From a virus, in the IMG/VR virus record IMGVR_UViG_3300043410_001766, positions 1 to 20,087 of that record: 20,087 bases of DNA. One strand, 5' to 3'. Positions 4,782-20,087 of this stretch are shown piece after piece. The position numbers and the translations under genes were made by a program. How positions within the stretch are numbered: the first letter of the stretch is position 1; the number at the start of each line of letters is the position of its first letter. The notes beneath the pieces are model-generated. The model worked only from the letters and a program-made list of their open reading frames with translations. It ran no database searches and had not been told where the DNA came from.

Positions 4782-6581
4782 TTATACAGACTTGACGACT
4801 CTCCAGTCATAGTCATAGGCAAAAACACCAGTTTCTGTCAAAGCTATTGACGTTACATCTGATTGAGCTAAATCTCTACCTGTATATAATAAATAATGCT
4901 TTTCTACTTGTCCCTGATTTAATTCAGTATCATATATGGCAATATTGCTATATGAGTTTCCAACACCTCCGACTGTCCAATCGTCCATCGAATTGATAAA
5001 TATTTGATCCGTAATAGGCTGGTCAAAAATTAAAACTATATGGTAAATTTCACCTGGCTCAAATAATTCAGATGCGTCAATAGATAGTTTTGCAGAAACT
5101 CCATTTATATAAATATCAGATAGATTATTATATGATATTGCTCCAGTTCCATCCCACCAATAATTTGAATCTCCACAGGAAACTAGGCAATTTTCTGATA
5201 GGCTGTTTCCATGTCTATAAATCATTTCAACAGAATAAATATCTTTAGCGGTTTCAATAGCAAACCCAGGGGCTCCGTATGGCCTAATTCCAGCCAATTT
5301 GTTTCTTTTTATTGTAGGATAATCTTTTGTTGAAGCAGAGATATCCCATACTGATGAGTCTATAGATCCACTTGTCGGCTGAACTATTGATATAGATTCT
5401 CCTGAATTTTCAGCATAAATATCTTTTTCAGAATAAAAATAAAAACTTAATTCATTTAATTGTGGTACTAAAACATTTAAATCGCTAGTCCACATAAATA
5501 CACTAAAATGTATAGTCTTAGAACCTTCATTTGTCCCATCACCTAAAACATATTCTGGAAGAGGCTTTCCATTTTCAAGAACAATCCATGTTCCATCATC
5601 GCCAGTGTCGCTAAATGATACTTCTATTCTAGTGTCAAAATTCCATTCTACTTTTGACGAAACAATATCTAATCCTGCTGGTATTGTAAATGAATCATAA
5701 AATATTGCTTCATCTACATCCTTATTTAAAGTTATACAATTATTATTTTTATCTATATAAAATGTAGAATTTAATTGAAGCTCTTCAAATCTTTTATTTT
5801 TAGGATATGAATATTCAAATATTTTACGAACATTAAAATCTGATCCACTAAATAACACACCATTTTCTGGAAATACTATTTGAGATGGTGGAATTGTTTG
5901 GTTAGCGTCATAATGATTTTTAATTTGCTCGGCAGATAATGCATATTTATATATAGCTGCATTATTTATAAGCATAGAATCTACAGTTAATTGAGTTGGT
6001 CCTATAAGAAAATAATCAAATGAATCATTTATAAATTTAAAATCTATCAAATTTTTTATGGATTTTAAAATTCCATTTAAATATAGAGATATTGTGTTAC
6101 CTCCATATACTGCAACAACATGTATAACTTCTCCATAATGATCTAAATGTGACCCTATTGAAATCTCATTAATATTAAAATAAATTGCACTATTCTTATA
6201 AGAAATTCCTACGACTGGATTATCGTTAGGGAGATTTAAGTTTGCATAAAATATATTAGTTGGATTATTTATTGTTTTAGGATATAGCCAAAATTCTATA
6301 GAGAATTCACTATCTGAACTATATTTATCTGCAATAGTAAATTTTGCATCTTCTCCAGTATATCCTTTTGAAAATGGCAACATTATTATTCCGTTAGGAT
6401 TTATTAAAAATGGTTGAAAGCTTTCTACCACCAATGGAAATCTAGGGTAGCTCACTGCTCCATTTGGATGAATTCCATTATTACCACAGGGGCTTAAATC
6501 ATATGCAATATCTCCCTCGTCTTCATCTAGTTTCCAGAAGCCTAGGGGATTATCTTTTAATACTGCATATGTATAACTCAT
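4782..6581 (-). CDS. Two-domain LamG/concanavalin-like protein
   Basis: 599 residues. Two jelly-roll lectin-type (LamG, concanavalin-like) regions are visible. The first spans about 5-225: it opens with LGFWKLDE, has FSIEFWLYP at about 92-100, then ISLYLNG near 164 and an AAIYKYALSAEQIKNHY ending. The second spans about 400-575, with an IYHIVLIF strand and an IAIYDTELNQGQVEKHY ending that mirrors the first. Between them is a beta-rich linker with no recognised family. Such proteins in phages are usually virion surface or host-binding components. ATG at 6579-6581 overlaps the stop of the preceding oxygenase gene in ATGA, so it belongs to the oxygenase operon rather than to the head operon. Carbohydrate binding is family knowledge; the actual ligand is unknown. 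Confidence 0.8.
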   Translation of the reverse strand: MSYTYAVLKDNPLGFWKLDEDEGDIAYDLSPCGNNGIHPNGAVSYPRFPLVVESFQPFLINPNGIIMLPFSKGYTGEDAKFTIADKYSSDSEFSIEFWLYPKTINNPTNIFYANLNLPNDNPVVGISYKNSAIYFNINEISIGSHLDHYGEVIHVVAVYGGNTISLYLNGILKSIKNLIDFKFINDSFDYFLIGPTQLTVDSMLINNAAIYKYALSAEQIKNHYDANQTIPPSQIVFPENGVLFSGSDFNVRKIFEYSYPKNKRFEELQLNSTFYIDKNNNCITLNKDVDEAIFYDSFTIPAGLDIVSSKVEWNFDTRIEVSFSDTGDDGTWIVLENGKPLPEYVLGDGTNEGSKTIHFSVFMWTSDLNVLVPQLNELSFYFYSEKDIYAENSGESISIVQPTSGSIDSSVWDISASTKDYPTIKRNKLAGIRPYGAPGFAIETAKDIYSVEMIYRHGNSLSENCLVSCGDSNYWWDGTGAISYNNLSDIYINGVSAKLSIDASELFEPGEIYHIVLIFDQPITDQIFINSMDDWTVGGVGNSYSNIAIYDTELNQGQVEKHYLLYTGRDLAQSDVTSIALTETGVFAYDYDWRVVKSV

Positions 6582-7198
6582 TTGTGTCTATTATACACCC
6601 AAAATCCTGGACACATATATTTATGACCTGAAAGTACCTCATTAGATTTATGAAGATATGGCTGATAAGAAGGAAATATAATTATACTTCCTGGATCTGG
6701 TTTAAACTTAATTCCATGATTAGCAAACTCCAGTTCTCCGCCCTCATAATCATCATTTAAATATGCAACTAAGGAATATCTTAAATTAGTATCCCCATCT
6801 GATTGATCAACATGATGACCCAATTCTGCACCCTTATGGTATCTATTAACAGCAAACATATCTAGAACAACAAGTTGATCTTCTAGATCTTTAATATGAG
6901 CAAAGCATTGTGCTGCATGCATCATTTGAGAATGAATACTATTCATAATGTATGTTGCTCTTAATCTTGAGTCTTTGTCCAAGAGCTCTAGGTTACCTTG
7001 AATTAATCTCTTTTGATGCCCATATTGAGTAGTTTTATCATTGCTAGAAAACCATTCATCCCATTTTGGAATAGCAGCTTGAATATTAGGATCATTCTCA
7101 GTATCTTCAATAAATTTTACAAGAAAATCTGGATTAGGAATTGCACCTGGAAAATATATAATTTCTGGATCTAATATTCTATGGTCTAACATTTGCAT
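6578..7198 (-). CDS. Fe(II)/2-oxoglutarate oxygenase, prolyl-4-hydroxylase type (oxygenase 1)
   Basis: 206 residues. This enzyme family couples oxidation of 2-oxoglutarate to hydroxylation of a substrate. The iron-binding triad is His129-x-Asp131 (GHHVDQS) and His183 (YLHKS), with Lys193 exactly ten residues after the distal histidine as the likely 2-oxoglutarate carboxylate ligand, as in collagen-type prolyl hydroxylases. The signature YLNDDYEGGELEF lies between. About 110 N-terminal residues form a helical lid typical of the family. ATG at 7196-7198 follows AGGAGA, which overlaps the stop of the preceding oxygenase. It overlaps the LamG-like gene by four bases. Substrate unknown; candidates are virion or host proteins. 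Confidence 0.88.
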   Translation of the reverse strand: MQMLDHRILDPEIIYFPGAIPNPDFLVKFIEDTENDPNIQAAIPKWDEWFSSNDKTTQYGHQKRLIQGNLELLDKDSRLRATYIMNSIHSQMMHAAQCFAHIKDLEDQLVVLDMFAVNRYHKGAELGHHVDQSDGDTNLRYSLVAYLNDDYEGGELEFANHGIKFKPDPGSIIIFPSYQPYLHKSNEVLSGHKYMCPGFWVYNRHK

Positions 7199-7208
7199 TT
7201 TATTTCTC

Positions 7209-7913
7209 CTAATATGTAGATGGGTCTAGAATAATGCCTTCGGCTTTTTTATCCTGCCAACCCTTGATCTGTTCTGCTTGTCTTAATCTTTCTTCTGAAA
7301 TTTCTTTTTCCCATGAAGCAATTTTTTCTTCAGAGTATTCAGATTCTTCGTTATCCCAGAATGAACCTATTGTATATCTATTTCCACCTAAAACTTGAGT
7401 AACCTGATGTTCATTATGAGCTCCTCCAGCAAATGCTGCTAACATCCCAGCCTTTGGCTTAATAGTTATATCATGATCTTTAAAATCTAATTCTCCACCT
7501 TCATATTCATCATTTAAATATAAAAATGCTGCCCATTTACTTCTTTCAAATGCATTATATTCACCATTTGTACTATTATCTGAATGAAATCCTGCAAATG
7601 CCCCAGGCTCCCATTGCTGTGCATGGTAGCTAACTTTTTTAACGGGAAGACCTCTAGTAATTGCTGTAGCTTCTTGCATTTTAGTTTCTAATTCTGTAAA
7701 GAAATTTTTTGGAATATTAAACTGTTTCATAAATTCATTTTCAGGAATAACAGATGCATATGACTCATAAAACGATATAGGTGTCCATTCAAGAAGGTTG
7801 TTATCTCTACAATACTCCCAATATGCTACTATCGCTTTGCTTTCTTCTGGGGTAAGAAATTCTTCAAAAACACAAATGTCTTCTTTTATTCTAATGCAAT
7901 TATCTAAATTCAT
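7209..7913 (-). CDS. Fe(II)/2-oxoglutarate oxygenase (oxygenase 2)
   Basis: 234 residues. The triad is His110-x-Asp112 (GFHSDNS) and His169 (NEHQV), with Arg179 ten residues later for 2-oxoglutarate. The YLNDEYEGGELDF signature and the KPKAGMLAAF strand are present. Using Arg instead of Lys at the co-substrate position separates it from oxygenases 1, 3, 5 and 6. A charged C-terminal helical extension of about 45 residues (from NEESEYSEEK) is an unusual addition. The start ATG overlaps the stop of oxygenase 3 (ATGA), and the TAG stop forms part of the ribosome-binding site of oxygenase 1, so translation is tightly coupled. Substrate not known. Confidence 0.87.
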   Translation of the reverse strand: MNLDNCIRIKEDICVFEEFLTPEESKAIVAYWEYCRDNNLLEWTPISFYESYASVIPENEFMKQFNIPKNFFTELETKMQEATAITRGLPVKKVSYHAQQWEPGAFAGFHSDNSTNGEYNAFERSKWAAFLYLNDEYEGGELDFKDHDITIKPKAGMLAAFAGGAHNEHQVTQVLGGNRYTIGSFWDNEESEYSEEKIASWEKEISEERLRQAEQIKGWQDKKAEGIILDPSTY

Positions 7914-8791
7914 TGAATTCTTACCGCACCTTCAATAACATTTCTCTGTGGATATTCTTGTCTATAAGCATCCATAATATCGCCTTGCATTTCTTTCCAG
8001 GTCTCTACACCGTATTCTTTTTCTTTTGCTAACCATTCTTCTGATGCTGGATAATGTTTCATCCAATACATCCTGGTCAGAATCTTTTCTGTTCCAGTAC
8101 ACTTATCTACGCTGTGTAAATATACTATACCGTCTTCTGATAAATAATCTGGATGACCCGCTGGGAATACTATAAAGTCTCCAGCTTTTGGTTTATACTT
8201 AAAAAGCTTTTTGCCTACAGCAAAATCAATTGCGCCGCCTTCATAATCATCATTTATATAAGTGGTCGTTGTAAATATAAATTTAGGCCCAGGGCTCTGA
8301 ATTGGCTCTCTAATATAATCTGTATGGTATCTCATTGCTAAATCTGCAGCATTGCCTGCATCTATATTGTATCTTGCAATAGTAGGTCCATTTACAACCC
8401 ATGTCTTTTCTTCATATCCAAATTGATTTATTATAGTATCGTTATCGGTTTCCATATCTATTCCGTAACGTTTAATATAATCATTATTTACTAAATGAAA
8501 ACCTTTAAGTAATTCAGTTACAAAATAAAATTGATCTTCCTGTCTTTTATTTTTAGGAGTAAATTCTGAAGTATAAATTAATTCATGTGCAGCTTTATCA
8601 AATCCAATTCCTAATTCTGTTATATATGTTCCAAAAATTGACCATTGATGCCAATCTCCCCACATTCCGTCCTTAGGTCCATCAAAAGTATCTTTTACAA
8701 TCTCATACATTCTATCTGGATCTTCAAATACATTATTATATACAACTATATATTTATATAACTCTTTAGATTCAAAGTTTGTATTAGTCAT
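7910..8791 (-). CDS. Fe(II)/2-oxoglutarate oxygenase (oxygenase 3)
   Basis: 293 residues, the longest oxygenase here. The triad is His156-x-Asp158 (RYHTDYI) and His226 (YLHSVD), with Lys236 ten residues after the distal His (Arg240 is another candidate). The core signature YINDDYEGGAIDF is present, followed by YKPKAGDFIVFP. The long N-terminal part (about 1-150) is helical, and its start (YKYIVVYNNVFEDPDRMYEI) is unlike its neighbours. Spacing between the two iron-binding sites is 70 residues, close to the 71 I recall for human collagen prolyl-4-hydroxylase. The ATG lies eight bases inside the end of oxygenase 4, so the genes are coupled. Function beyond family is unknown. Confidence 0.86.
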   Translation of the reverse strand: MTNTNFESKELYKYIVVYNNVFEDPDRMYEIVKDTFDGPKDGMWGDWHQWSIFGTYITELGIGFDKAAHELIYTSEFTPKNKRQEDQFYFVTELLKGFHLVNNDYIKRYGIDMETDNDTIINQFGYEEKTWVVNGPTIARYNIDAGNAADLAMRYHTDYIREPIQSPGPKFIFTTTTYINDDYEGGAIDFAVGKKLFKYKPKAGDFIVFPAGHPDYLSEDGIVYLHSVDKCTGTEKILTRMYWMKHYPASEEWLAKEKEYGVETWKEMQGDIMDAYRQEYPQRNVIEGAVRIQ

Positions 8792-9521
8792 TTACATTCT
8801 CTTTGTCTAGCAAAACACGATAATATTTTTTATTTGGATCAGGTTGTTCGCTACCAGTATGTTCTAGAATTTCCCAAAAAAATGGGCAAGTAAATCTGTT
8901 TCCAGATGTTATGTTTCTAACACCGTGAATATAATTCATATCACCTGGGAAAAAGTATGCTGCTCCCTTTTTAGGCTTAAACTCTATTCCTTGAATTGGA
9001 AAATATAATTCTCCCCCTGTATAATCATCTGTAAAATAAAACAAAGAGGCGATATCATAATGAGGAAAATCATTAGGTGTGCCTGCGTCTGGGCCAGTAT
9101 GCAATTCTTTATCAGCATGTGGTAACTGGAAGGAACCAGGTGGCCATTTAACTACCGCTGGTCCAGTTTCTCTTACTTTTACATTTAAAGAAGATTCTAC
9201 CACTTCCTGAAGACGACGCATTAGTTCTTGAATGATTTCTACAACTTTAGGATCTGTAGCTTTTAATGTATTAAATGTAGCAACCCTATCTTTCCAATAA
9301 TTTGCTTCATATATAACAGTTCCATTTTCATTTATATGGTCTTCTGTTATATCCCAACTATTATTGTTTGTAGCAAAATTATCCAAATAATCCATTTCTT
9401 CTTGGGTCATAAAATTTTCAAGTTCATAAATTTTATCTACTCCATATCCAAAAAATCCAGAAGGGGTTATGGATGTAAGTTTTTGATACTCATGATGACC
9501 ATTTGATAACATTTGTTCCAT
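8784..9521 (-). CDS. Fe(II)/2-oxoglutarate oxygenase (oxygenase 4)
   Basis: 245 residues. The triad is His135-x-Asp137 (LPHADKE) and His199 (YIHGV), with Arg209 ten residues later for 2-oxoglutarate binding. It carries the FTDDYTGGELYFP signature and the FKPKKGAAYFFPG strand. The C-terminal block NRFTCPFFW resembles HKYMCPGFW of oxygenase 1, suggesting these two are closer relatives. The start ATG at 9519-9521 is four bases from the stop of the upstream DUF6065-like gene. Like its neighbours it has no signal peptide or membrane segment, so it should act in the cytoplasm of the infected cell before lysis. Substrate not known. Confidence 0.87.
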   Translation of the reverse strand: MEQMLSNGHHEYQKLTSITPSGFFGYGVDKIYELENFMTQEEMDYLDNFATNNNSWDITEDHINENGTVIYEANYWKDRVATFNTLKATDPKVVEIIQELMRRLQEVVESSLNVKVRETGPAVVKWPPGSFQLPHADKELHTGPDAGTPNDFPHYDIASLFYFTDDYTGGELYFPIQGIEFKPKKGAAYFFPGDMNYIHGVRNITSGNRFTCPFFWEILEHTGSEQPDPNKKYYRVLLDKENVND

Positions 9522-9524
9522 ATA

Positions 9525-10250
9525 TCACTTATACTTTCTTCTTGTCCAGAATGACTTTTTATACACTCCGCCATCTTTTGTTCTAAATGTTTTAGCAGTC
9601 CATGCATGCCTATCCATAATTTCTTTCATATCATGAATGACATAATCGCTTTCCCAATCTTCTCTCTTAAAAGGAATTATTTGCATATACGGAGTGCCTG
9701 CTGGAATAATTCCAGTCCAGCCTTTCTTTAAAAAGAATGGCAAAAGTCCTGGGGTACTAAACTTATCGTTATCAATTATACCAGTGGTGTTTGTAAATGG
9801 TAGATCATATCTATTCATTGGAGTTAAATATAGTGCGCTATATCCTTCTGGAAGTTCTGGAGCCCAATTTGGCCACCAGTGATAGTGTCTGTCTTCATGT
9901 CCTGCTGGTGTTGGAAAAGAAGTCATAGCTTCTCTTTCTCCGCAAAATCCTTCATACATAGGTGGTACTTTAACTTTAATCTTGCCAGATTCTTCATAAA
10001 ATTCAATATCGCATGGAGTCTTCAATACATAACCTGTTGTAAATAAATCTAAAATTCCAGGACAGGCTTTAAATGTAGGTACTTTAAATCCTTCGGGAGT
10101 TACGTAATCCTGCTTAGTCATAGGATTTTTAAAATAAAGATCTTCTTTTTGAAACCATTCTGGAATACTTCTGCCTGAAGGTTCTGGCTGAAATCCATCA
10201 TCTGATTTACAATATGGTCTATTAGAATGAAAAATTATTTTATTTATCAT
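9525..10250 (-). CDS. DUF6065-like protein, divergent member
   Basis: 241 residues, rich in aromatic residues and proline, no membrane segment. I do not recognise a named enzyme. It shares a layout with the next gene upstream: an early CPGILDLFTTGYVLKTPCDI block (about 63-82), a middle SALYLTPMNRYDLPF block, and a WTGIIPAGTPYMQIIPF block (about 178-194) that matches ITIPAGTPVAALIPI in the neighbour. I infer the two are distant paralogues with a beta-sandwich or cupin-like fold. The C-terminus (from about 220) is strongly basic (KKSFWTRRKYK). It overlaps the neighbour by eleven bases inside the oxygenase operon, so a role with the oxygenases is likely. Biochemical function is unknown. Confidence 0.72.
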   Translation of the reverse strand: MINKIIFHSNRPYCKSDDGFQPEPSGRSIPEWFQKEDLYFKNPMTKQDYVTPEGFKVPTFKACPGILDLFTTGYVLKTPCDIEFYEESGKIKVKVPPMYEGFCGEREAMTSFPTPAGHEDRHYHWWPNWAPELPEGYSALYLTPMNRYDLPFTNTTGIIDNDKFSTPGLLPFFLKKGWTGIIPAGTPYMQIIPFKREDWESDYVIHDMKEIMDRHAWTAKTFRTKDGGVYKKSFWTRRKYK

Positions 10251-10953
10251 TTTTATCCCTACTATTTATTTTTAATCTAATAGCTTTAACTTCATGATTT
10301 CCTACTGAATTTCCTAGATAGTCAACAGCATCTCTATAAAAATTACTCCATATGCCTTTCATGTTCATCTCTCTAATAACTCTTGTATGTTCTTGTGTAG
10401 GCCAAAAATTATTAGGAATATCTGACATTGGTCTTTCATTCATTTCTGAATTATTTAAATCTGTTAATGATATTGGAATTAAAGCAGCTACTGGAGTTCC
10501 AGCTGGTATTGTAATTTCTATATTTGGTTCAGTAACTCTCCAAGCTATAGGAATTTCACCTTTAAAAAATGATGTACTTATTAGTGTAGTAAATGGAGAC
10601 ACTCCACGTAAATGTAAATTTGGAACTGGCATACTTAACATACTAATATTTTCATCTGTTTTAAACATAACTCCACTATTAAAACTAATAGTTGCATTTG
10701 ATCTTTCTGTATATGCGTATTGTTCACCTTTTAAAATTTTAACGTGATCTGGAGTTGAATCGGTAATTCCATCCCAAATAAATGTAATATCCTCTGGGAA
10801 AGCAATTCCCCAACCTAGACCATTTGTAAGGGTTACTGGAAAACAATTATAAGCATGCCTGTCATATGTTTCTTCCATCCAATCTCTTTTGATTGGTAGA
10901 TTGGTTAAATAACCCATATCAGGTCTTGTTTTAAAATAATCAATTGAATGCAT
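10240..10953 (-). CDS. DUF6065-family-like protein
   Basis: 237 residues. The pattern matches what I know of DUF6065: RDWMEETYDRHAYNCFPVTL near residues 24-43, GLGWGIAFPEDITFIWDG shortly after, a SGVMFKTD strand, then WRVTEPNIEITIPAGTPVAALIPI around 138-161 and a C-terminal helix. The family has no assigned activity that I know of; members often lie near 2-oxoglutarate oxygenases and other small-molecule enzymes, which is the case here. The ribosome-binding site AAAGGAG overlaps the TAA stop of oxygenase 5. The IPAGTP block is shared with the following gene. The assignment is from memory of the family pattern, so moderate confidence. Confidence 0.72.
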   Translation of the reverse strand: MHSIDYFKTRPDMGYLTNLPIKRDWMEETYDRHAYNCFPVTLTNGLGWGIAFPEDITFIWDGITDSTPDHVKILKGEQYAYTERSNATISFNSGVMFKTDENISMLSMPVPNLHLRGVSPFTTLISTSFFKGEIPIAWRVTEPNIEITIPAGTPVAALIPISLTDLNNSEMNERPMSDIPNNFWPTQEHTRVIREMNMKGIWSNFYRDAVDYLGNSVGNHEVKAIRLKINSRDKNDK

Positions 10954-10957
10954 TTTA

Positions 10958-11650
10958 TTACTCCTTTATGGAATAAGCTGTTGCAAATTGTTTATAAAAA
11001 TCTGGCTGATGTGCAGCATCATTATAATCTGTCATAGTTACAATAGAATATTTTGTGCCTTCTCCAACTGGCAAGGCAGCATGTGAAAACAAATAAGATG
11101 ATGGAAATACATATAAGTCTCCCGCTTTAGGTTTTATTTCAAGATCTAATTTATCAAATCTTAATCCTCCGCCAGTGTAGTTATCATTAGGATATGCCAC
11201 TAATGATACTGTTGAAATATATGAAAATCCATGATCTGCGTGATAATAAAAGTGTTGACCTGGACCGTATTTAATAAAATTCATTGCTTCCCAGTATGTT
11301 AAATTAATATTATACATTCTAGAATAATCTGTTAATACATTTAATTGTTTTGAATAAAGATCTTTCCAAATTGCTCCCGACTCTAAATCATTTTGCGAAG
11401 CTCCTGGGTACTCAATATTTCTAAGTTTATAATCAAAACAATCTCTATATTCTGGTCGCTTTTCACGATATCCTACAGTTGCCTCATTCCATTGATGAGC
11501 TGGATCACCTTTAGAAAGCAAAGATTCTACTCGATTAATTACATCCACATCCGCCGTGATAACATCACGATAAACCCAAATTCCTGGGAATAATTGTTCT
11601 TTTGAAGACCAAGTTTTTTCAATATCTGGCCATTCCTGATGTTGCATCAT
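10958..11650 (-). CDS. Fe(II)/2-oxoglutarate oxygenase (oxygenase 5)
   Basis: 230 residues. The triad is His137-x-Asp139 (YHADHG) and His190 (SHAAL), with Lys200 ten residues after the distal His. It is clearly a paralogue of oxygenase 6 just upstream: both have a RDCFDY/RDCVDF block, a YWEAMNF/YYEAFNF block, HADHG, KPKAGD followed by VFPS, and end in an MTD(Y/I)N motif. The signature here is diverged, PNDNYTGGGLRF, with Gly replacing the usual Glu of GGE. The start codon overlaps the stop of oxygenase 6 (TAATG), so the pair looks like a tandem duplication that stayed translationally coupled. Substrate not known. Confidence 0.87.
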   Translation of the reverse strand: MMQHQEWPDIEKTWSSKEQLFPGIWVYRDVITADVDVINRVESLLSKGDPAHQWNEATVGYREKRPEYRDCFDYKLRNIEYPGASQNDLESGAIWKDLYSKQLNVLTDYSRMYNINLTYWEAMNFIKYGPGQHFYYHADHGFSYISTVSLVAYPNDNYTGGGLRFDKLDLEIKPKAGDLYVFPSSYLFSHAALPVGEGTKYSIVTMTDYNDAAHQPDFYKQFATAYSIKE

Positions 11651-12366
11651 TATTTATGTCCTATCTCATTTATGTCTGTCATAATAACTACACAATATTT
11701 TGTTCCTGAATTGATTGGTAAAGAAGCATGTTCATATATATAGTTTGATGGGAATACTGCAATATCCCCTGCTTTTGGTTTATATGTTAAGTTATCTAAT
11801 CTTGGAAATTGAATTTCTCCACCTTCATAGTCATCATTTAGATATATTACTGCAGATACTGTACAGTTGTATGCTGGTCCGTGATCTGCATGGATTCGGA
11901 AATGCTTTCCCTCTCCTTCATATTTTACAAAATTAAATGCTTCATAATAGATAACATTTATTCCCCAATATCTTGCGTAGTCGTCTATACAAAGTTTTAA
12001 TTTTTGATAAACTTCTTCATGTAAATCTATTAATTCTGAATTTTTTTCTGTTCTTGGACCTAAATTTTCTTTTTTATATCTAAAATCTACACAATCTCTA
12101 GCTTTTTTAATAGGAATATTTGAATTGGTAACTTGAGCTTCTGACCAGACATAACCCTTGCTGCCGTTTAAATTAGATTCAAGAGTATTAATCAATCTTG
12201 ATATATCTTCTTTGGTAAAAGTATTATGATATATATTTAGCCCTAATGCTGGATTAGATACCGATATTGAATTATTTATTATACGATCTTCCATACGATG
12301 GACTGTAGTTTCAGACCTATCCTTATTGAACCATTCATCTTGTGGATCTTGATAATTAGATTCCAT
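11650..12366 (-). CDS. Fe(II)/2-oxoglutarate oxygenase (oxygenase 6)
   Basis: 238 residues, first gene of the nine-gene leftward block. The triad is His159-x-Asp161 (IHADHG) and His213 (YEHASL), with Lys223 ten residues later for 2-oxoglutarate. The canonical YLNDDYEGGEIQF signature is intact, unlike the drifted version in paralogue oxygenase 5. An N-terminal extension of about 40 residues precedes the conserved ALGLNIYHNTFTKED start. ATG at 12364-12366 lies about 25 bases downstream of a TGCTATAAT extended -10 element (12391-12399), with AGGAT as a modest ribosome-binding site. The gene is divergent to the plus-strand flavin monooxygenase. Substrate not known. Confidence 0.87.
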   Translation of the reverse strand: MESNYQDPQDEWFNKDRSETTVHRMEDRIINNSISVSNPALGLNIYHNTFTKEDISRLINTLESNLNGSKGYVWSEAQVTNSNIPIKKARDCVDFRYKKENLGPRTEKNSELIDLHEEVYQKLKLCIDDYARYWGINVIYYEAFNFVKYEGEGKHFRIHADHGPAYNCTVSAVIYLNDDYEGGEIQFPRLDNLTYKPKAGDIAVFPSNYIYEHASLPINSGTKYCVVIMTDINEIGHK

Positions 12367-12390
12367 TTAAATCCTAACTCTTATTTAGTC

Positions 12391-12399
12391 ATTATAGCA
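12391..12399 (-). promoter_or_regulatory. Extended -10 promoter for the oxygenase block
   Basis: Minus strand TGCTATAAT, an exact extended -10 element, identical to the one at 250-258. No good -35 is seen at 16-18 bases, which is acceptable for extended -10 promoters. It would start a leftward transcript covering oxygenase 6 through the LamG-like gene. It lies in the 82-base gap between divergent genes. Confidence 0.6.
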
Positions 12400-12413
12400 T
12401 AATGATTATATAA

Positions 12414-12443
12414 TTGCTAGTACTTTTTTAAATATAGTATACT
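12414..12443 (+). promoter_or_regulatory. Putative promoter giving a leaderless mRNA
   Basis: TTGCTA (12414-12419), 18-base spacer, TATACT (12438-12443). The A of the ATG at 12449 is six bases after the -10, the usual distance to a transcription start, and no ribosome-binding site precedes the gene. Transcription and translation could therefore start at the same base, as in many actinobacterial genes. A second -10-like TATAAT at 12409-12414 would give a leader of about 30 bases without a Shine-Dalgarno site. Confidence 0.45.
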
Positions 12444-12448
12444 TAGAA

Positions 12449-13444
12449 ATGATGAATAAAAAGAAATTAAAATTAGAATGGATGCTGGAAAGAGGTCATG
12501 ATTTTAATGACCCTACCCTAATTAAACTACTAGATGAAAATTTTTCTTCTATATTAATTAGGACTAGCACTTTTTTCCCAGACCCGTGGGCAATAGCTCA
12601 TAAGTATGCTTCTATAACAGATAATCTTAATTTTATTATAGCTGTTAATCCAATGATGATGAATCCAGTTTACTGTGCAATAAAAATTGTAACATTTCAA
12701 AAAATGTATGGGAATAGGGTTTCTATTAATGTTGTTTCTGGAGCAAGTACTGTTGAGCAGGCAGCTTATGGAGATAGTTTTCCAATATCTTTTAGATATA
12801 AGCGTTCAGCAGAATATGCCAAAATAATTAAACAACTTGTTGTTACTGGAAAGATTGATTCGTTTAATGGAAATTTTTATAATCTTAGTGATGTAGAAAT
12901 GGAATCTGGAAATGATTTTGAAATTGTATTTGCTGGATCATCAGATAATACAATAGATCTAGCTAATAATTTGGGAACTGCACACTATTATGCAATGGAA
13001 ACTTTACCTCAATATATTGAAAATAGACATAAAATATTTGTTGAGTCTGCAATTAAATCAACAATTATAGTTAATGAGAATTCTGATAAAGCTTGGGAGT
13101 TTGCAAATAATTTAATAAAAGATGTCACTGAAGATGACATAAATAAATTAAAAATAGATTTATCTAGTCATGAATCTCAAAATCAAAAACATCAGCAATC
13201 CCTTCATAATTTCTCTAAAGATAATTTAATTGTAGATAAAAATATATGGGCTGGATTTGGATTACTTAGGGGTGGTGGAATTACAGCCATGGTAGGTAAT
13301 AATATAGAAGTGGCTAATCTTATAGAAAAGTTTTATATTAATGGATTAGATAGATTGCTTATTGGAGGAACTCCAGAGTTGTTGTTTGCAAACAATTTTA
13401 TATCTGGAATAATTCCATTATTAGAAGATAGGAATATAATATGA
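12449..13444 (+). CDS. SsuD-like flavin-dependent monooxygenase (luciferase-like family)
   Basis: 331 residues. The family uses reduced FMN and oxygen; its best-known relative, alkanesulfonate monooxygenase SsuD, releases sulfite from sulfonates. Family blocks are clear: SINVVSGAS (92-100), RYKRSAEY (116-123), IVFAGSSDN (159-167), NIWAGFGLLRGGGITAMVG (265-283) and a final FISGIIPLL. Compared from memory with E. coli SsuD, it is about 50 residues shorter, and the positions of Cys54, Arg226, His228 and Tyr331 appear to hold Phe43, Lys203, Thr205 and Thr308, so the usual sulfonate chemistry is doubtful. The mobile-loop Arg (Arg274) is kept. It has no ribosome-binding site and may be leaderless; a second ATG directly follows the first. 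It overlaps the next gene by ATGA. It could also be an FMN-binding protein with a new substrate. Confidence 0.82.
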   Translation: MMNKKKLKLEWMLERGHDFNDPTLIKLLDENFSSILIRTSTFFPDPWAIAHKYASITDNLNFIIAVNPMMMNPVYCAIKIVTFQKMYGNRVSINVVSGASTVEQAAYGDSFPISFRYKRSAEYAKIIKQLVVTGKIDSFNGNFYNLSDVEMESGNDFEIVFAGSSDNTIDLANNLGTAHYYAMETLPQYIENRHKIFVESAIKSTIIVNENSDKAWEFANNLIKDVTEDDINKLKIDLSSHESQNQKHQQSLHNFSKDNLIVDKNIWAGFGLLRGGGITAMVGNNIEVANLIEKFYINGLDRLLIGGTPELLFANNFISGIIPLLEDRNII

Positions 13445-14205
13445 AATATGATCTCTTTTTTAATGTTCACATTCCTAGAACTGGCGGGACTCATTTTAGG
13501 GAAAACATTCTTAATCCTTTAGAACAAACATTTAAAGAAAATGGCATTAATATATATTCAAAAGAAAAATTAGATACAGCACACTGGTGTTGGTTCAAAC
13601 CATTTATACAAGATAGTACTTATATATATACCTCATTAAGGGATCCCGTCTCAAGACTATTAAGCCAATTTGCCTGGCAAGCAAAAGACTCTATTATAAA
13701 AAAAACCACTAACTACAAAATTGAAGATATTAATAAATTTAATTTTTATAAATGGTTAGATGATGGATATGATATTTATAAAAATTTTCAAGCAAAAAAT
13801 TTAGTGTATTATAATAAAGATCATTCTATATATACTGTAGCTACTAACACTAGATGGGAAGACGGTGGAGTTCCAAAGAGGGACCATTTTCTATTTGATC
13901 AAGACTTTATTAATTTTAATATAAATAAAGAAGACTTAGTCAATAATTTAAAAAGAATTAATATGGTTGTTGATGCCAGAGATCTTAAGGATAACAACAA
14001 ACAGTTTAAAATAATAAATAAAATGTTAAATGATTTAAATATTCCTCGTTTAAAATATCTAGATCAGTCTGTTCATACTGTATTTTCAAGTCATACTACT
14101 GATAAACTTATGGATAGTTTTACAGCAGCTGAAATTGATAAGCTATATGAATATAATGATATAGATTCGGAAATATATTTTTCAAATTATTTTACAGAAT
14201 ATTAA
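13441..14205 (+). CDS. Sulfotransferase-like protein A
   Basis: 254 residues. Sulfotransferases move sulfate from PAPS to a hydroxyl or amine on a glycan, lipid or protein. The 5'-phosphosulfate loop is HIPRTGGT at residues 10-17 close to the N-terminus, and the 3'-phosphate binding motif is SLRDPVSRLLSQF at about 65-77. This matches the Sulfotransfer_2 type of cytosolic-fold enzyme. There is no signal peptide or membrane anchor, unlike the eukaryotic Golgi enzymes. ATG overlaps the stop of the monooxygenase (ATGA), so the two are co-translated. The gene is extremely AT-rich. Its stop overlaps that of the opposing methyltransferase gene. The acceptor is unknown. It is a distant relative of protein B at 15429-16115. 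Confidence 0.78.
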   Translation: MKYDLFFNVHIPRTGGTHFRENILNPLEQTFKENGINIYSKEKLDTAHWCWFKPFIQDSTYIYTSLRDPVSRLLSQFAWQAKDSIIKKTTNYKIEDINKFNFYKWLDDGYDIYKNFQAKNLVYYNKDHSIYTVATNTRWEDGGVPKRDHFLFDQDFINFNINKEDLVNNLKRINMVVDARDLKDNNKQFKIINKMLNDLNIPRLKYLDQSVHTVFSSHTTDKLMDSFTAAEIDKLYEYNDIDSEIYFSNYFTEY

Positions 14206-14861
14206 TCTTTAAGACTATAAATAACTAATTCTGCAAAATCATATATTGGTTTTTTACCCAGATATCTTTGGAAATCATATGTATCTTCAAATAGAAATAC
14301 AAAATATGAATTAGTTTTTTTAATGGTTTCCCAATTCTTTTCCATAAACTTATGAAAAATTTCTGGATAAAATGGCAAATAAAAATAATAAACACAATCT
14401 TTTTCTTCTGCTTCATAGTCCAGGCCGTTCATTTCAAGAAACTTAACATCTTTAGTTATAGGCATATTAAATGTTTTTAAATTATTAAGAGCTATATTAT
14501 TAAAAAAATCATCTGCTTCAATTCCAATATAATCCTTGTATGGAGAATTTTGTATTAAGTTATAAAATATAACTTTTCCCTTACCGCTTCCAATGTCTAT
14601 AAACGTGTAATTACCAATTTCTGGATCTTTGCTAAGCTCTGCATTAACCATATCTAAATATTCTAATGCCGATGCTTCATATGCATTAGAACCCTCTATT
14701 GGCTTGCTATTCATTATAAATCCTGGACGCAAATCTCCACTGTTATCATCTGCCAGTCTACGTGGATGTCCTGTATCTATATTGTATTGTTCATCAAACT
14801 TTTCGTAATTTAAACAATCTCCTCTTCTAATTCTTTTAATAACATCGGGATTTTTTAACAT
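14202..14861 (-). CDS. Class I SAM-dependent methyltransferase
   Basis: 219 residues. Motif I, FIDIGSGKGKV, lies at 87-97 and binds S-adenosylmethionine; the acidic residue of the second strand is Glu115 in YIGIEADD; a motif-IV-like YYFYLPFYPEIF follows at about 158-169. The arrangement is like that of DOT1-like and related small-protein methyltransferases, where the aromatic motif replaces the NPPY of DNA methylases, so a DNA methylase role is unlikely. About 80 N-terminal residues before motif I form a helical cap. ATG at 14859-14861 follows GGAAAGG, which lies in the last codons of the hydroxylase gene upstream. It is the last gene of the right-hand leftward block. Substrate unknown. Confidence 0.82.
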   Translation of the reverse strand: MLKNPDVIKRIRRGDCLNYEKFDEQYNIDTGHPRRLADDNSGDLRPGFIMNSKPIEGSNAYEASALEYLDMVNAELSKDPEIGNYTFIDIGSGKGKVIFYNLIQNSPYKDYIGIEADDFFNNIALNNLKTFNMPITKDVKFLEMNGLDYEAEEKDCVYYFYLPFYPEIFHKFMEKNWETIKKTNSYFVFLFEDTYDFQRYLGKKPIYDFAELVIYSLKD

Positions 14862-14863
14862 AA

Positions 14864-15454
14864 TTACCTTTCCTGATTCATATATTTATTTTCTATTAAA
14901 TCTATTATTATATGTATTCTATCATATATTGAATTGTTATCTACGGAATGAGGTAAAGAATTATTTATATCGTACCATTTTCCAACTTCCATATTTATAG
15001 AATTTCCAAATATGGTGAAAACTACATCTTTATTTGTTATAAGCGGTACATGTATTCTTCTTCCAAGGTAAAGGAATTCTCCGCTATCAATGTGATCTGG
15101 GATATGACTGTTTGCATGCATTTTTATTATTTCGCATCTAACTACTTTTGCATCGTATTCTTTTTCTAAATAATTATATATTTGCTGCATACATATATTA
15201 CTATTTTCTTTTTTAAATTTATTTATAACTTTAGATTGATAACCTTGCCCAACTTCCCACCAATAATCCATGAATTGAAGTTGAAACATTTCTGTATCTT
15301 TATGTGTAGCTAATTTATCTTGTCTTGAAGTATCTAATTTCCATTCTTCGTCTAAAACTTTAACCTCTTCAATCAATTCATTTAAATTAACTGGAAGTTC
15401 ATCATATATAAATTGCCAACTTGTATCCTTAGTTTTTGCTCTTGACATAATCAT
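14864..15454 (-). CDS. Aspartyl/asparaginyl beta-hydroxylase-like oxygenase
   Basis: 196 residues (194 if the second ATG at 15446-15448 is used; the GGAAG site is better spaced for that one). The fold is the Asp/Asn beta-hydroxylase branch of 2-oxoglutarate oxygenases, distinct from the six prolyl-hydroxylase-like genes. Visible motifs are His121-x-Asp123 (PDHIDSGEF), Arg133-Arg-Ile-His-Val-Pro-Leu for 2-oxoglutarate, distal His169 (LPHSVDN), and a closing Arg179-Ile-His-Ile-Ile-Ile-Asp strand. It overlaps the end of sulfotransferase-like B by 20-26 bases and is followed two bases after its stop by the methyltransferase gene. Related bacterial enzymes act on peptides or lipids; the substrate here is unknown. 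Confidence 0.85.
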   Translation of the reverse strand: MIMSRAKTKDTSWQFIYDELPVNLNELIEEVKVLDEEWKLDTSRQDKLATHKDTEMFQLQFMDYWWEVGQGYQSKVINKFKKENSNICMQQIYNYLEKEYDAKVVRCEIIKMHANSHIPDHIDSGEFLYLGRRIHVPLITNKDVVFTIFGNSINMEVGKWYDINNSLPHSVDNNSIYDRIHIIIDLIENKYMNQER

Positions 15455-16115
15455 ATACTTCCATGTCTAATGAATTTAAATCTTCTATTTTTTTACGCAT
15501 ATCTTTACTTATGGTCATAATGCTAAAATTTTCATTCATTTGATTTCTGTTAGAAAATGAATAGAATCCGAAAGTTTGATACAAAAGATTATTCAAGTCA
15601 TCTATAAAATTTTTATGATTATCTATAGTATTTACTATTTCCATTGAATCTATTAAATTTTTAACTTCTAACATATTAATGGGTCCGCCTTCTAAGCACC
15701 ATCCATTTAAAGCTCTTTCTGTTCCATGATTCATAGAATTATAAAGCGATTCATCTAATGACTTATTTAAACTTTTTGCCTGTAAATTATATTGATCTTT
15801 ATTTTCCATCCATTGTTCTAATTGTGCATCTAGATGTAATCCTTTATAAGATCTATGCATATATATAAAATTACTAATAAATCTATCTACTGGATCTCTA
15901 ACTAAACAAATATTAATAAGATCATCTCTATATTTTAATGGAGTTAGCCCGAAATGTCCTGAAATAAATTTTTTATCTTTGAATGTTTCGGGAAAAACTT
16001 CTCCGTGATTTGTGGCAAAATAAGGAATTCTTTTTGCTTTTAAATCATTAACAATATGAGATTTTATATATATTCCAGAGCATCTAGGAATATGTATATG
16101 GTTTATAGATTTCAA
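15429..16115 (-). CDS. Sulfotransferase-like protein B
   Basis: 228 residues. PAPS-binding signatures are IHIPRCSGIYIKS near residues 7-19 and CLVRDPVDRFISNF at about 70-83. A family-typical FISGHFGLTP lies at 50-59. The P-loop is diverged (RCSG in place of K/R-T-G-G), so catalysis is less certain than for protein A. The start is TTG at 16113-16115: it is the only codon close to the P-loop and follows AAGGTAGGA with a 4-base gap. That ribosome-binding site is buried in a hairpin at 16119-16154 that also includes the stop of the upstream Hint gene, which suggests coupled or restrained translation. The acceptor is unknown. Confidence 0.75.
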   Translation of the reverse strand: MKSINHIHIPRCSGIYIKSHIVNDLKAKRIPYFATNHGEVFPETFKDKKFISGHFGLTPLKYRDDLINICLVRDPVDRFISNFIYMHRSYKGLHLDAQLEQWMENKDQYNLQAKSLNKSLDESLYNSMNHGTERALNGWCLEGGPINMLEVKNLIDSMEIVNTIDNHKNFIDDLNNLLYQTFGFYSFSNRNQMNENFSIMTISKDMRKKIEDLNSLDMEVYDYVKSKN

Positions 16116-16118
16116 GGA

Positions 16119-16154
16119 GTCCTACCTTCTAGAGATTATCTCTTCTGGTAGGAC
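16119..16154 (-). promoter_or_regulatory. Hairpin burying the ribosome-binding site of sulfotransferase-like B
   Basis: 16119-16126 (GTCCTACC) pairs with 16147-16154 (GGTAGGAC), and inside it 16131-16135 (AGAGA) pairs with 16139-16143 (TCTCT), leaving a TTA loop. On the minus-strand RNA, the GGTAGGA that would bind the ribosome is in the 3' arm, and the Hint gene stop (TAG) is in the inner stem. No T tract follows, so it is not a terminator. Confidence 0.6.
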
Positions 16155-17538
16155 CCTGGAAAGCACCTTTCTTATTGTGGGCAACAACATCGCCTGCAAT
16201 AAATAAGTCATATGGTGTTACTGAGAAATCATATACATCTACTGTTTCATCAAGATATCCAATGCTTTCTACTTTAACGTCTGTCATTCTATTATTGATA
16301 TCATATACTAGGAAATCTCCTACCTTTAATGTACCTGCCTGAATGAACATGTATGTATCTTCTCTTCTTGCAAGAAGCATATGCTCTAGTGAGAATCTTC
16401 TATTTTTAGCCTCATTAAGCATTACTGTTACTGCAGCTTGTCTAATCTTAATAGATTCTACAGTTGTTTCAACAATTTGATCTTCTGTAATTGATTCTGA
16501 AGACCATGTTTCTAATACATATTGGCTACGATCTAATGGTAATTCATTGAATCTGTATGAAGATAATGTATCTCCCACCTTTATATCTTTAGCAAGGACA
16601 TAACCTTCTGGTGTGCGAATTGGAGTATCTCCATGTACGCAGAAAGCTGGGAAGAATGGAGGGAAGAACGGTGCTGCAAAGTAAGGTGGGAAGAACGGGA
16701 AGAATGGGAAAAATGGTGGGAAGAATGGTGGCGCAAAGTAAGGTGGGAAGAACGGGAAGAATGGGAAAAATGGTGGGAAGAATGGTGGCGCAAAGTAAGG
16801 TGGGAAGAACGGGAAGAATGGGAAATAAGGTGGGAAAAACGGCGGGAAGAATGGAAAATAAGGTGGGAAAAACGGCGGGAAGAATGGAGCCAGTGTTGTA
16901 ACGGTTCCAGTGGTTGCTCCCAGAGAAGTACCATTTCCATTTGTTGCTGTAATGGTATAGGTTTGAGAAGTATTAGCTGTATCAGCAATTGTTGTACTTG
17001 TTGCAGATGCTGCTAAATTCAATGAAGAAGTTCCATCAGAGCCATTAACATCATGTTTTGTTAAAGATTTTCCTCCAGTTGCTCCAATTACCCAGTTAAT
17101 TGTATTTTGATTAACTCCTGCAGTTGCAGATGGACTTTGTGGGGCTTGTGGAACTGTTGTTGATAATGTACTACCTGACACAGTATTTGGTGTTTTTGCC
17201 GATCCAGAAGCATTTTTAGGGATAATAGTAAATGTATATGATACGTTTGATTCTAATCCCTGAAACGTATAAGATGCGGCAGAACTTCCTGAATTAACAG
17301 TAACAGTAGCATTATCAGATACTCTGGTTGCTTTAATATCATATGACGTTGCTGCTGGAGATGTTGCTGGTAATGTCCAAGATAAAGATACCGCACCGCC
17401 TTGTCCCGCTGTGCCATTAAATGTTGTTGAATAAGGTCTAGCTGTTCCAACATCTGTTGCTGTAAGACCTGTTACGTTTAGCGGTTCAAGAAAGTTGTCT
17501 TGTGCTGAAGACTTGATACCTATTCTTTTATTTGACAT
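16129..17538 (-). CDS. Fibronectin-III / Pro-Phe repeat / Hint autoprocessing protein
   Basis: 469 residues. Residues about 20-128 and 130-217 look like two fibronectin type III modules (VSLSWTLPATSPAATSYDI; then QAPQSPSATAGVNQNTINWV). Residues 218-298 are almost only Pro, Phe and Tyr in FFPPFFPPYF-like units. Residues 300-455 are a Hint (hedgehog/intein) domain: Cys300 with VHGDTPI, VLAKDIKVGD, a block-B His386 (FSLEHMLL), LKVGDFLVY, and the terminal VVAHN (His454-Asn455). Only 14 residues follow, and the next one is Lys456, not Cys/Ser/Thr. This is therefore a bacterial-intein-like or hedgehog-like cleavage domain rather than a standard splicing intein. ATG follows AAGGAG. It lies directly after the tail-fibre-like gene, suggesting a virion surface or tail-tip protein. 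Confidence 0.85.
   Translation of the reverse strand: MSNKRIGIKSSAQDNFLEPLNVTGLTATDVGTARPYSTTFNGTAGQGGAVSLSWTLPATSPAATSYDIKATRVSDNATVTVNSGSSAASYTFQGLESNVSYTFTIIPKNASGSAKTPNTVSGSTLSTTVPQAPQSPSATAGVNQNTINWVIGATGGKSLTKHDVNGSDGTSSLNLAASATSTTIADTANTSQTYTITATNGNGTSLGATTGTVTTLAPFFPPFFPPYFPFFPPFFPPYFPFFPFFPPYFAPPFFPPFFPFFPFFPPYFAPPFFPPFFPFFPFFPPYFAAPFFPPFFPAFCVHGDTPIRTPEGYVLAKDIKVGDTLSSYRFNELPLDRSQYVLETWSSESITEDQIVETTVESIKIRQAAVTVMLNEAKNRRFSLEHMLLARREDTYMFIQAGTLKVGDFLVYDINNRMTDVKVESIGYLDETVDVYDFSVTPYDLFIAGDVVAHNKKGAFQGPTRRDNL
16681..16794 (-). repeat. 57-bp tandem repeat encoding a Pro-Phe unit
   Basis: Two apparently identical 57-base copies (16681-16737 and 16738-16794) follow one another, and a third, partly diverged copy starts at 16795. 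Each encodes 19 residues of the type FAPPFFPPFFPFFPFFPPY. Shorter, related GGGAAGAA-type units extend to about 16885. The identity at DNA level suggests recent expansion by slippage or recombination. Length is an exact multiple of three, so copy number can change without shifting frame. Confidence 0.9.
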
Positions 17539-17555: not shown

Positions 17556-20087
17556 TTATGCAGTTAGGTCGCCCATTACTACCCAGGTATCTGTTGCTCT
17601 CTTGAATAGAGTTGCTGATGACCATTGTGTTCTTAATTTTAATCCTGGTGTTCCATTAACTGTAACTCCAGATCCAGCTGCAACAGTTACTTGTCCAGCT
17701 CCAGTTTGGAGGATATCAATAGATGTTCCTACTGGATATGCAACTGATGAGTTAGGTGGAATTGTTACAGTAATTGCTGAAGCATTATTTAATTCAACAA
17801 GTGAATCTCTGTCAGTTAATACAGTTGTATAGGATGTTCCAATTTGTGCGTTTATTGGAGTACGTGATGGAACACCTTCTTTAGACTGAGTTCCATCTGA
17901 GAATGCTATGCTTGTAGCAGATGCTGCTCCAAGTGTTGGTGTTGTCAAGGTAGGTGAAGTTGAAAGAACAACATTTCCGCTACCTGTTGAAGTTGTTACT
18001 CCTGTACCACCATTTGCTACTGGAAGAGTACCCGTCACACCTGTTGATAGTGGAAGACCTGTGACATTTGTCATAGTTCCAGAAGCTGGTGTTCCAAGTG
18101 CTGGTGAGGTAAGTGTAGGACTTGTTAGAGTCTTATTTGTAAGAGTTTGAGTTCCTGATAATGTAGCTACTGTTGAATCAATTGCTACGGTTACTGCAGA
18201 GCCACCATCAAATGATGTTCCTGAAAGACCAGTTCCAATTGTAAGAGCATTTGTAGTAGATGCTTTTACTGTAATTGCTGCTGAACCATCGAATGCAACT
18301 CCATTAATATTTCTTGCAGTTGCAAGTTTGGTTGCTGTGTCTGTATTGCCAGTAACATTTCCAGTTAAATTACCTTCAAATGTTCCAGCCTTGAATGTGT
18401 CATATGTTGCTCCAGTGAAGTCTATTGTTCCTGAAGGTTCTGTTGATACTCCTGAGAATACCTTCCACTTTCCGTCGGAAGCATCACGAACAATACCTGT
18501 GTGCTGGTAAGTGCCATTATCAAAATGTCCTACCATACCAAGATCATTAGCGTTTGCAGAATTACCAGTTCCGATATAAATTATTGGATCTGAAATTTCA
18601 AGGTTTGTTGAAGAAACTGTAGTTGTTGTACCGTTTACAGTTAAATTACCTGAAAGGGTTAGGTTTGTTCCTGAAATATCTCCTGTAAATGTTGCTCCAG
18701 CTAATGCTGCCTTTGCAGCTAAATCTGTTGTAAGGTTTGCAACCTTTGATTGAGCAATTGCTGCAGATGAGCTGATATCGCCATTAACAATTGTTCCATC
18801 TACGATATCTGCAGATGTTATAGAAGCTGTAAGATTTAATTTACTGTATGCAATTGCTGCTGAAGAAGATATATCTCCATTTACAATTGTTCCATCCAAA
18901 ATCATTCCTGATGTAACTGTACCTGAAGGTAATGTTACTGTTCCAGTAAATGTTGGAGATGCAAGAGGTGCTTTAAGATCTAAAGCTGTTTGAGTAGCTG
19001 TAGATACTGGCTTATTGGCATCTGAAGTATTGTCAACATTTCCAAGTCCGACATCCGCCTTAACTATTCCTGATGGACTTGTAATTGTCTTATTTGTAAG
19101 AGTTTGAGTTCCATCTGTAGTTACTAATTTTGAAGTATCTGTAATTCCGTGAATATTTGTTGTATCTGATTCATGTGAAGATAGTGCAGATACTGCAGCA
19201 GATTGTGCATCTGATGCCTTTCCATCTGCATAAGTCTTTGTTGCAAGAGCAGATGTATCAGCAATTCCATGAATATTAGTTGTATCTGATTCGTGTGTAG
19301 ACACAGCGGAATCTGCATATGATTTAGTTGCTAATAAAGAAGTATCTGGAATTCCATGTACAGATGTTGTATTAGAATTATGAGTTGATACTGCAGTATT
19401 TGCATAAGTTTTTGTTGCCAATTCTGCAGTATCTGCAATACCATGAACAGATGTTGTATCGTTTGCATGAATATCAAAATCTGTGGTAGATACCTTATCA
19501 TCTAATTGATTTTGAATAGCTGATGAAACTCCGTGTACATAATTTAATTCTTCTGCAGTTGTTGAAAGTTCATTAAGCTTGACTAATTCTGCATATGAAA
19601 CATCACCTATTGTTACTGTTGATGGAAGAACTACATCTCCTGTAAATGTTGGAGACTCTATAGGAGCTTTTGCTGTATCCAACGCATCAATTTGATCTTG
19701 AATTGAAGATGATACGTTTTCCAAATATGATATTTCTGTACCAGAAACAGCTCCAATTGTAGTTGTTGATGGAAGTTCAACATTTCCAGTAAATACTGGA
19801 GAGTTCTTATCAGCCTTATCATTTCCCAATGTATCAAATCTTTCTTGAACATTTACAGAAATGCCATTTAGGCTTTGAAGTTCTGTATTTGATACATTTC
19901 CAATATTTGCAGAAGTAGCATTTAACATTCCTACTTCTAATGTATCTTTGGTATATGTTGAAAAATCAACTGTAGTTGATGGTTCAGTAGCTACACCACT
20001 AAATAATTTCCATTTTCCATCGGTAGCATCTTTTACAAGGCCAGTGTGCTGGTATATTCCGTCATTAAATGCTCCGACAAAACCTAA
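17556..20087 (-). CDS. Tail-fibre-like repetitive protein, 5' end outside window
   Basis: The frame is open from the window edge: 844 codons visible, TAA at 17556-17558. The ATG at 19926-19928 is internal, since 53 in-frame codons precede it with clear homology to a later part of the same protein. Modules in order: a GxVGxFxDGxYQHTG..V.DA.DGKWK domain (truncated); units of EL/EI..L..VSSSIQ.Q with SPTFTGDV; four units of [15 protein letters not shown].LATK.YA; an [15 protein letters not shown] motif; SAAIA.SK repeats; a second full copy of the edge domain; [10 protein letters not shown] and ANGGTGVTT fibre motifs; and a C-terminal beta-rich tip ending in VVMGDLTA. Such motifs are typical of phage tail fibres and receptor-binding structures. 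There is no recognised chaperone or enzymatic domain. Confidence 0.85.
18390..18545 (-). repeat. Duplicated domain in the tail-fibre protein, copy 2 (copy 1 at 19932-20087)
   Basis: The segment [17 protein letters not shown] followed by [20 protein letters not shown] is repeated at the window edge as [16 protein letters not shown] followed by [20 protein letters not shown]. The copies are about 52 residues each, roughly 500 residues apart, and similar at protein and DNA level. This shows that the protein continues upstream of the window. Confidence 0.85.
19134..19478 (-). repeat. HGIxDT repeat array in the tail-fibre protein
   Basis: Four successive units of the form TTS/N-V/I-HGI-x-DT-x-x-L-x-T, mostly joined by TK.YA and AVSTHxS linkers, each about 30 residues. 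This is a common shaft-type repeat in phage fibres and probably forms a trimeric beta or coiled shaft. The DNA copies are similar but not identical. Confidence 0.8.

Follow-up and report, generated by a model that had tools for sequence, protein, structure and literature searches.

A Phe/Pro Repeat Protein and a Linked Array of Prolyl Hydroxylase-Like Oxygenases: A Candidate Tail-Tip Decoration Module of Phages

Results and Discussion

The phage DNA analysed here, a 20-kb virus record (IMGVR_UViG_3300043410_001766; 20,087 nucleotides, called the window in the following), encodes an array of six 2-oxoglutarate (2OG)-dependent oxygenases which resemble prolyl 4-hydroxylases (P4H), and, directly after the tail fibre, a protein with a low-complexity Phe/Pro(/Tyr) repeat. 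Repeat and array were found to be associated whichever of the two was used for the search, and within one phage lineage they change together. The enzymes are genetically tied to a structural repeat protein of the phage's own, and it appears rather probable, judging from the sequences, that the locus serves for decoration of the tail tip, with the array hydroxylating an exposed tail repeat.

Association of Repeat and Oxygenase Array

All IMG/VR contigs were scanned with DNA patterns for three repeat units, and the oxygenase sequences were left unused; a DNA pattern for collagen-like tail repeats served as control. The scans comprise the matches listed, 120 stretches each, and are not random samples. 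Loci were counted if at least 3 kb of flank was present, and genes if their distance from the repeat gene did not exceed 4 kb; many arrays are cut by the ends of the loci, and the p values of association count loci, ignoring kinship. An oxygenase was present beside the repeat in 54/80 and 77/94 loci, together 131/174, versus 4/96 loci of the collagen-repeat control (p 9e-33). The same was true for proteins of the family DUF6065, which were found beside the repeat in 40/80 and 69/94 loci versus 0/96 controls (p 1e-29). Since the first oxygenase profile had been derived from portal relatives, the test was rerun with Pfam's own PF13640, which at the level of records detected 45 of 50 repeat-bearing and 6 of 50 control records; one control record, G082, holds ten PF13640 genes. 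When loci sharing any protein at 90% identity were merged, an oxygenase was located within 5 kb downstream in 52 of the 61 dereplicated clusters. Of the 50 repeat records, many of which are fragments, only 21 contain a homologue of the window's capsid protein (four at about 41%), and the module of repeat and array appears to span several phage lineages. The T4-like capsid family PF07068 gave no match in the repeat records, which is uninformative, since there was none in the control genomes either.

The reverse search started from ox4, the best conserved of the array oxygenases, for which IMG/VR contains at least 600 relatives. Identity is about 61–69% for the best 80, and these provided 32 loci with upstream sequence of 7 kb or more. 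The repeat was encoded upstream of ox4 in 32/32 loci, 30 of them recognized by script and two (L618 and L619) on closer reading.

Phages with related portal proteins were compared as one lineage. In this lineage, PF13640 was found, considering whole records, in 16/16 records of repeat type and in 0/12 records without repeat. Five records of FFPP type contain 5–8 PF13640 genes each, and eleven records of a third type contain 1–3. All portal relatives with the six-oxygenase array possess a FFPPYF or FFxPPx repeat protein where the region is covered. The third type carries a (FGFTP)n repeat ahead of a Hint domain lacking the Cys (six checked; also L044; sister phages L033 and L637-L642), and its enzyme set consists of two oxygenases, detected with the profile derived from the portal relatives, a glycosyltransferase-like and a short-chain-dehydrogenase-like protein, the last two being named by reading of the sequence. 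Repeat unit and enzyme set thus shift together between FFPP-type and FGFTP-type relatives, which is the strongest argument that the enzymes serve the repeat and not just the neighbourhood.

Gene Content of the Window

On the minus strand, from right to left, the window encodes the tail fibre, a protein consisting of fn3-like domain(s), repeat and Hint domain, a sulfotransferase (ST2), an oxygenase similar to Asp/Asn beta-hydroxylases (AspH-like) and a methyltransferase (MT)-like protein. Further leftward follow a SsuD-like monooxygenase and a second sulfotransferase (ST1) on the plus strand, then, again on the minus strand, ox6, ox5 and a pair of DUF6065 proteins, and finally ox4, ox3, ox2, ox1, a LamG protein and the head genes. 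The portal shares 55–60% identity with its counterpart in large Streptomyces phages, and because of this resemblance the host is probably an actinobacterium.

4782–6581, minus strand: LamG/concanavalin-like lectin-domain protein (PF13385, phrog_11584), at the island's distal end, ahead of the portal
6578–7198, minus strand: ox1, P4H-like 2OG oxygenase (PF13640, 52 bits; HxD...H)
7209–7913, minus strand: ox2, P4H-like 2OG oxygenase (PF13640, 44 bits; HxD...H)
7910–8791, minus strand: ox3, P4H-like 2OG oxygenase (PF13640, 26.5 bits, just below the cut-off; HxD...H)
8784–9521, minus strand: ox4, the array's most conserved oxygenase (PF13640, 29.8 bits)
9525–10250, minus strand: DUF6065-like protein a (phrog_7084, E 9e-34), GIIDxD kept, halovirus homologues
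10240–10953, minus strand: DUF6065 protein b (PF19541, 95 bits), predicted dUTPase-like fold, motif 3 lost
10958–11650, minus strand: ox5, P4H-like 2OG oxygenase (PF13640, 47 bits; HxD...H)
11650–12366, minus strand: ox6, P4H-like 2OG oxygenase (PF13640, 48 bits; HxD...H)
12449–13444, plus strand: SsuD-like FMNH2-dependent monooxygenase (PF00296; SsuD structures), overlapping the ST1 start; apparent accessory insert
13441–14205, plus strand: ST1, sulfotransferase-like (phrog_3347, E 1.2e-6; motif HIPRTGG); apparent accessory insert
14202–14861, minus strand: probable class I S-adenosylmethionine-dependent MT (weak TrmB-like match, E 8e-4; FIDIGSGKGK); apparent accessory insert
14864–15454, minus strand: AspH-like 2OG oxygenase (PF05118), the conserved partner of ST2
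15429–16115, minus strand: ST2, sulfotransferase (PF03567, 28.9 vs 22 bits; motifs HIPRCSG and RDPVDR), first gene after the repeat gene
16129–17538, minus strand: tail-fibre-linked protein with fn3-like domain(s), repeat and Hint (Pfam fn3, Intein_splicing; phrog_38766, virion structural protein)
16642–16890, minus strand: 83-aa Phe/Pro/Tyr repeat (FFPPFFPPYFPFFPP...) with 34 Pro, 38 Phe and 5 Tyr, candidate substrate
17556–20087, minus strand: tail fibre gene, truncated at its 5' end by the window border and immediately preceding the repeat gene

A previous sequence-only reading had described the region 6578–16115 as a candidate cassette for hydroxylation and sulfation. Open reading frames and Pfam and PHROG scans confirmed its list of six PF13640 proteins, one PF05118 protein, two sulfotransferases, a flavin monooxygenase and a probable methyltransferase; overlooked were the two DUF6065 proteins within the array and the Phe/Pro repeat of the neighbouring Hint protein. 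Scans for promoters and terminators yielded nothing beyond the level of shuffled sequences.

The Oxygenases

The curated cut-off of PF13640 (27 bits) was passed by five of the six array genes, the exception being 7910–8791 with 26.5 bits. In an alignment of the six proteins the HxD and the H of the iron triad HxD...H are invariant, and the Lys/Arg following the second His was read in the same alignment; among 719 relatives, HxD...H is kept in 673. The best relatives of the array profile with solved structures are the peptidyl prolyl hydroxylases 3itq and 5hv0 (E about 5e-14), followed by PKHD enzymes and prolyl 3-hydroxylase 1; on the basis of these sequence similarities, the array enzymes are putative prolyl hydroxylases. 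The AspH-like enzyme exceeds the cut-off of PF05118 (44.5 vs 22.6 bits). Since ox1 shows only 22–26% identity to the other five PF13640 proteins, these are not its recent duplicates. From ox6 to ox1 the genes are overlapping or almost contiguous (gaps of -11 to +10 bases) and are probably co-transcribed. Related phages contain recognizable orthologues in one order: repeat, (ST-AspH), ox6, ox5, two DUF6065 genes, ox4, ox3/ox2, ox1. The high density of oxygenases, which had been noted before as unusual, is therefore not due to chance, since this order recurs in many phages.

Two other functions were considered and rejected. For anti-phage defence, PADLOC returned matches only to generic 2OG and methyltransferase entries, and modification of DNA bases by TET/JBP-like enzymes is unlikely, since the profile matches were below cut-off.

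The Repeat and the Hint Domain

The repeat units of the window are of the type FFPPFFPPYF, with mixed synonymous codons (TTC/TTT, CCA/CCG/CCT); the candidate substrate consists of FFPP/FFxPPx and not of collagen G-X-Y repeats. The tail fibre gene is situated directly upstream in 142 of the repeat genes compared. The repeat is mainly a phage feature, since in cellular genomes totalling 257 Gb the DNA pattern matched only 12 contigs. In locus L080 the repeat is part of a distinct PASTA-like protein that lacks Hint. As candidate substrates for the array enzymes, the synthetic peptides FFPPYFPPFFPP and FFAPPGFFAPPG are named.

In the window the repeat stops directly ahead of the Hint cysteine (Cys1), and in the other repeat genes compared the distance from repeat to Cys1 is a few residues where a Hint domain follows. 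In 81 of 220 repeat genes the repeat is followed by fewer than 20 residues, hence a repeat without Hint is commonly the end of its protein; self-cleavage of the Hint domain would therefore expose the same end. The Hint domain of the window possesses Cys1 and a C-terminal HN; Cys1 and the C-terminal Asn are both present in 56 of 79 Hint-type relatives. Splicing inteins have Cys, Ser or Thr as +1 nucleophile; here Lys follows the HN, so that splicing is not expected, and the domain would appear to be a cleavage-type Hint rather than an intein. Resemblance to bacterial intein-like (BIL)/Hint domains includes the N-terminal Cys, the C-terminal His-Asn and the position C-terminal to the functional part; differences are the fusion to an aromatic/Pro repeat in a phage protein and the Lys after Asn.

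Proposed Function and Alternatives

The following sequence of events can be envisaged. Within the infected cell, the P4H-like enzymes would hydroxylate the repeat, most likely on proline, with consumption of O2 and 2OG and with Fe(II), different paralogues perhaps acting at different positions of the repeat. The DUF6065 pair could serve the core as scaffold or chaperone. The Hint domain would cut itself off and leave the repeat at an exposed C-terminus, and in the window phage ST2, together with the AspH-like enzyme, may add sulfate to hydroxyls of the same protein. The product would be a polar, modified tip of adhesive or receptor-binding character.

Several points weigh against this proposal. 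Association is no proof of a substrate, and both repeat and array could be parts of a receptor-binding module that moves as a whole, with the enzymes acting on something else. The repeat is rich not only in Pro but also in Phe. About 15% of the dereplicated repeat loci are without a nearby oxygenase, although some may have one elsewhere in the genome. Halovirus homologues of DUF6065 adjoin genes for thymidylate synthase or ribonucleotide reductase. PBCV-1 is another virus with a P4H gene, and a search for hydroxyproline in its virions was negative (PMC7019647).

The sequence-only reading had suggested that virion proteins or molecules of the host envelope are modified. The first part is now strongly supported and has become specific for the Phe/Pro repeat, which tracks the array in both search directions; the second part persists as a rival explanation, which we consider unlikely. 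Oxygenases and sulfotransferases would then modify the host envelope or the phage receptor, e.g., for blocking superinfection, and their linkage to the repeat would stem from adsorption modules moving as blocks. Receptor-binding loci are modular and often contain envelope-modifying genes; furthermore, some portal relatives have glycosyltransferase-like genes at the locus, and ST1-type genes occur outside repeat loci. However, the scarcity of oxygenases at collagen-repeat tail loci (4/96) shows that the link follows the repeat and not tail fibres generally, relatives with the same head but no repeat are devoid of PF13640 (0/12), the FGFTP repeat comes with a changed enzyme set, and the nearest structural relatives of the oxygenases act on proline-rich peptides.

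It is improbable that the enzymes are chiefly meant for another virion protein of the neighbourhood (LamG, fibre shaft, fn3 or Hint), the repeat being an unmodified structural or hydrophobic element. The LamG gene follows directly after ox1 in the portal lineage, and the ST-AspH pair tracks Hint rather than the repeat (see below); but LamG is also found in portal relatives without any array, and many array loci show no LamG, the common factor being the repeat. Synthesis of a small molecule or a service to host metabolism (2OG/nitrogen balance) has the lowest probability of all: nitrogen metabolism, host reprogramming and PiuC-like functions have been suggested in the literature (PMC9602691, PMC13184970, PMC10611076), and the SsuD-like monooxygenase and the nucleotide-enzyme type of the DUF6065 fold would fit, but neither the linkage of ox4 and repeat (32/32) nor the fixed order of fibre, repeat and oxygenases, nor the absence of the latter from repeat-less sister phages, is predicted by it.

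Possible Sulfation and the Apparent Accessory Insert

A sulfotransferase was found beside the repeat in 8/80 and 10/94 loci, i.e., in 18/174, versus 0/96 controls (p 5e-4). The relay of hydroxylation and subsequent sulfation, proposed in the earlier reading, is thus supported in a minority of loci, whereas most loci with repeat and oxygenases are without a sulfotransferase, so that a general co-occurrence of the two enzyme types was not borne out. A conserved link across all loci was rejected; PF03567 alone was detected in 6/50 versus 1/50 records (p 0.11). For the window phage, hydroxylation with sulfation is plausible; for the module as such, sulfation would be an optional, later layer, seen in about a tenth of loci. 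Sulfotransferase and AspH-like enzyme occur together in 16 loci, and the pair is located after the repeat gene in 14/73 cases with Hint versus 1/118 without (p 6e-6); the median distance of the sulfotransferase from the repeat gene is 4 bp. Tyrosine as the general target of sulfation was rejected, since most loci with the ST-AspH pair have repeats without Tyr.

Both ST1 and ST2 contain the motifs HIPRxxG and RDPxxR for binding of 3'-phosphoadenosine 5'-phosphosulfate (PAPS). ST1 matched only phrog_3347 and no Pfam family; its weak fold matches are mostly sulfotransferases (best E 0.015). The flavin monooxygenase is closest to SsuD (E 4.5e-34). The genes for ST2, AspH-like enzyme, MT, ST1 and monooxygenase have a GC content of 26–29%, versus 30–35% in the array, and the layout MT-ST1-monooxygenase is also present in locus L561; for these two reasons the five genes look like later additions. 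Monooxygenase, MT and ST1 interrupt the conserved array and hence look like an accessory insert rather than a core step. SsuD-like monooxygenase, ST1-type sulfotransferase and MT travel together in L477, L478 and L561, L478 being without an oxygenase array. ST1-type sulfotransferases are common in other phages which have no Phe/Pro repeat at the locus (L480-L556).

The DUF6065 Pair

The DUF6065 pair is part of the core of the module; a role as scaffold or chaperone is a guess. A model obtained with AlphaFold2 on 63 sequences (pLDDT 93.6) had dUTPases as its best PDB matches in Foldseek (E 1e-4, target TM mostly 0.6–0.7), and a dUTPase-like fold is therefore predicted for DUF6065/phrog_7084, with no claim of dUTPase activity. 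A sequence search of the PDB with DUF6065 gave no match. The catalytic motif 3, GxIDxD, is present in 100 of 259 members, often in one of two copies. Homologues of DUF6065/phrog_7084 (window 9525–10953) occur in haloarchaeal tailed viruses.

Comparison with Known Systems

For the prolyl 4-hydroxylase of PBCV-1, viral proteins were proposed as substrates, according to the summary of Eriksson 1999 in PMC7019647. That system is a single enzyme of a eukaryotic virus. A linked repeat operon with sulfotransferase or Hint is, to our knowledge, not present there. Mimivirus similarly encodes a repeat-rich protein plus decorating 2OG enzymes and transferases (PMC9546862), but there the repeats are collagen G-X-Y and the targets lysines (lysyl hydroxylase/glycosyltransferases) of a giant virus, in contrast to the Phe/Pro tail repeats and the six-enzyme P4H-like array of the window phage. 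The cultured cyanophage S-SCSM1 shares with the latter the presence of multiple PF13640 genes; its 24 2OG-Fe(II) oxygenase genes were reported as reprogramming host metabolism, their functions not being specifically investigated (PMC9602691). In its sequence (L457:1-7793), 2OG genes are situated on both sides of the tail fibre genes, and one fibre contains a low-complexity insert rich in F/R/P/Q. Neither S-SCSM1 nor nine further records of marine phages with 2OG genes contain FFPP. The insert is perhaps a second class of repeat served by 2OG enzymes, which would suggest a broader principle.

Phage 2OG oxygenases have been treated as metabolic or as unassigned in role (PMC9602691, PMC13184970, PMC10611076). 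Searches of the open-access literature yielded no description of hydroxylases together with a Phe/Pro repeat in phages, which is not proof of absence. A phage-encoded candidate substrate beside a conserved enzyme array makes the role of the 2OG genes of aquatic phages directly testable. If the decoration module is real, phages modify proteins of their own attachment machinery in several steps, which would be relevant to adhesion and host range, and the module would be a source of new peptide hydroxylases and sulfotransferases; DUF6065 gains a predicted fold and a context. More tentatively, many aquatic phages might make a hypermodified tail-tip polymer, in which dedicated paralogues hydroxylate defined positions and which is freed by Hint and sometimes sulfated. 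Such a tip would be a phage adhesive with a logic like that of plant hydroxyproline-rich proteins or mussel foot proteins, and would account for some of the so far unexplained abundance of 2OG oxygenases in phages.

As a further observation, a glutathione-peroxidase-like gene (PF00255) is located at L178:9279-9896; members of its cluster occur in 12 repeat loci.

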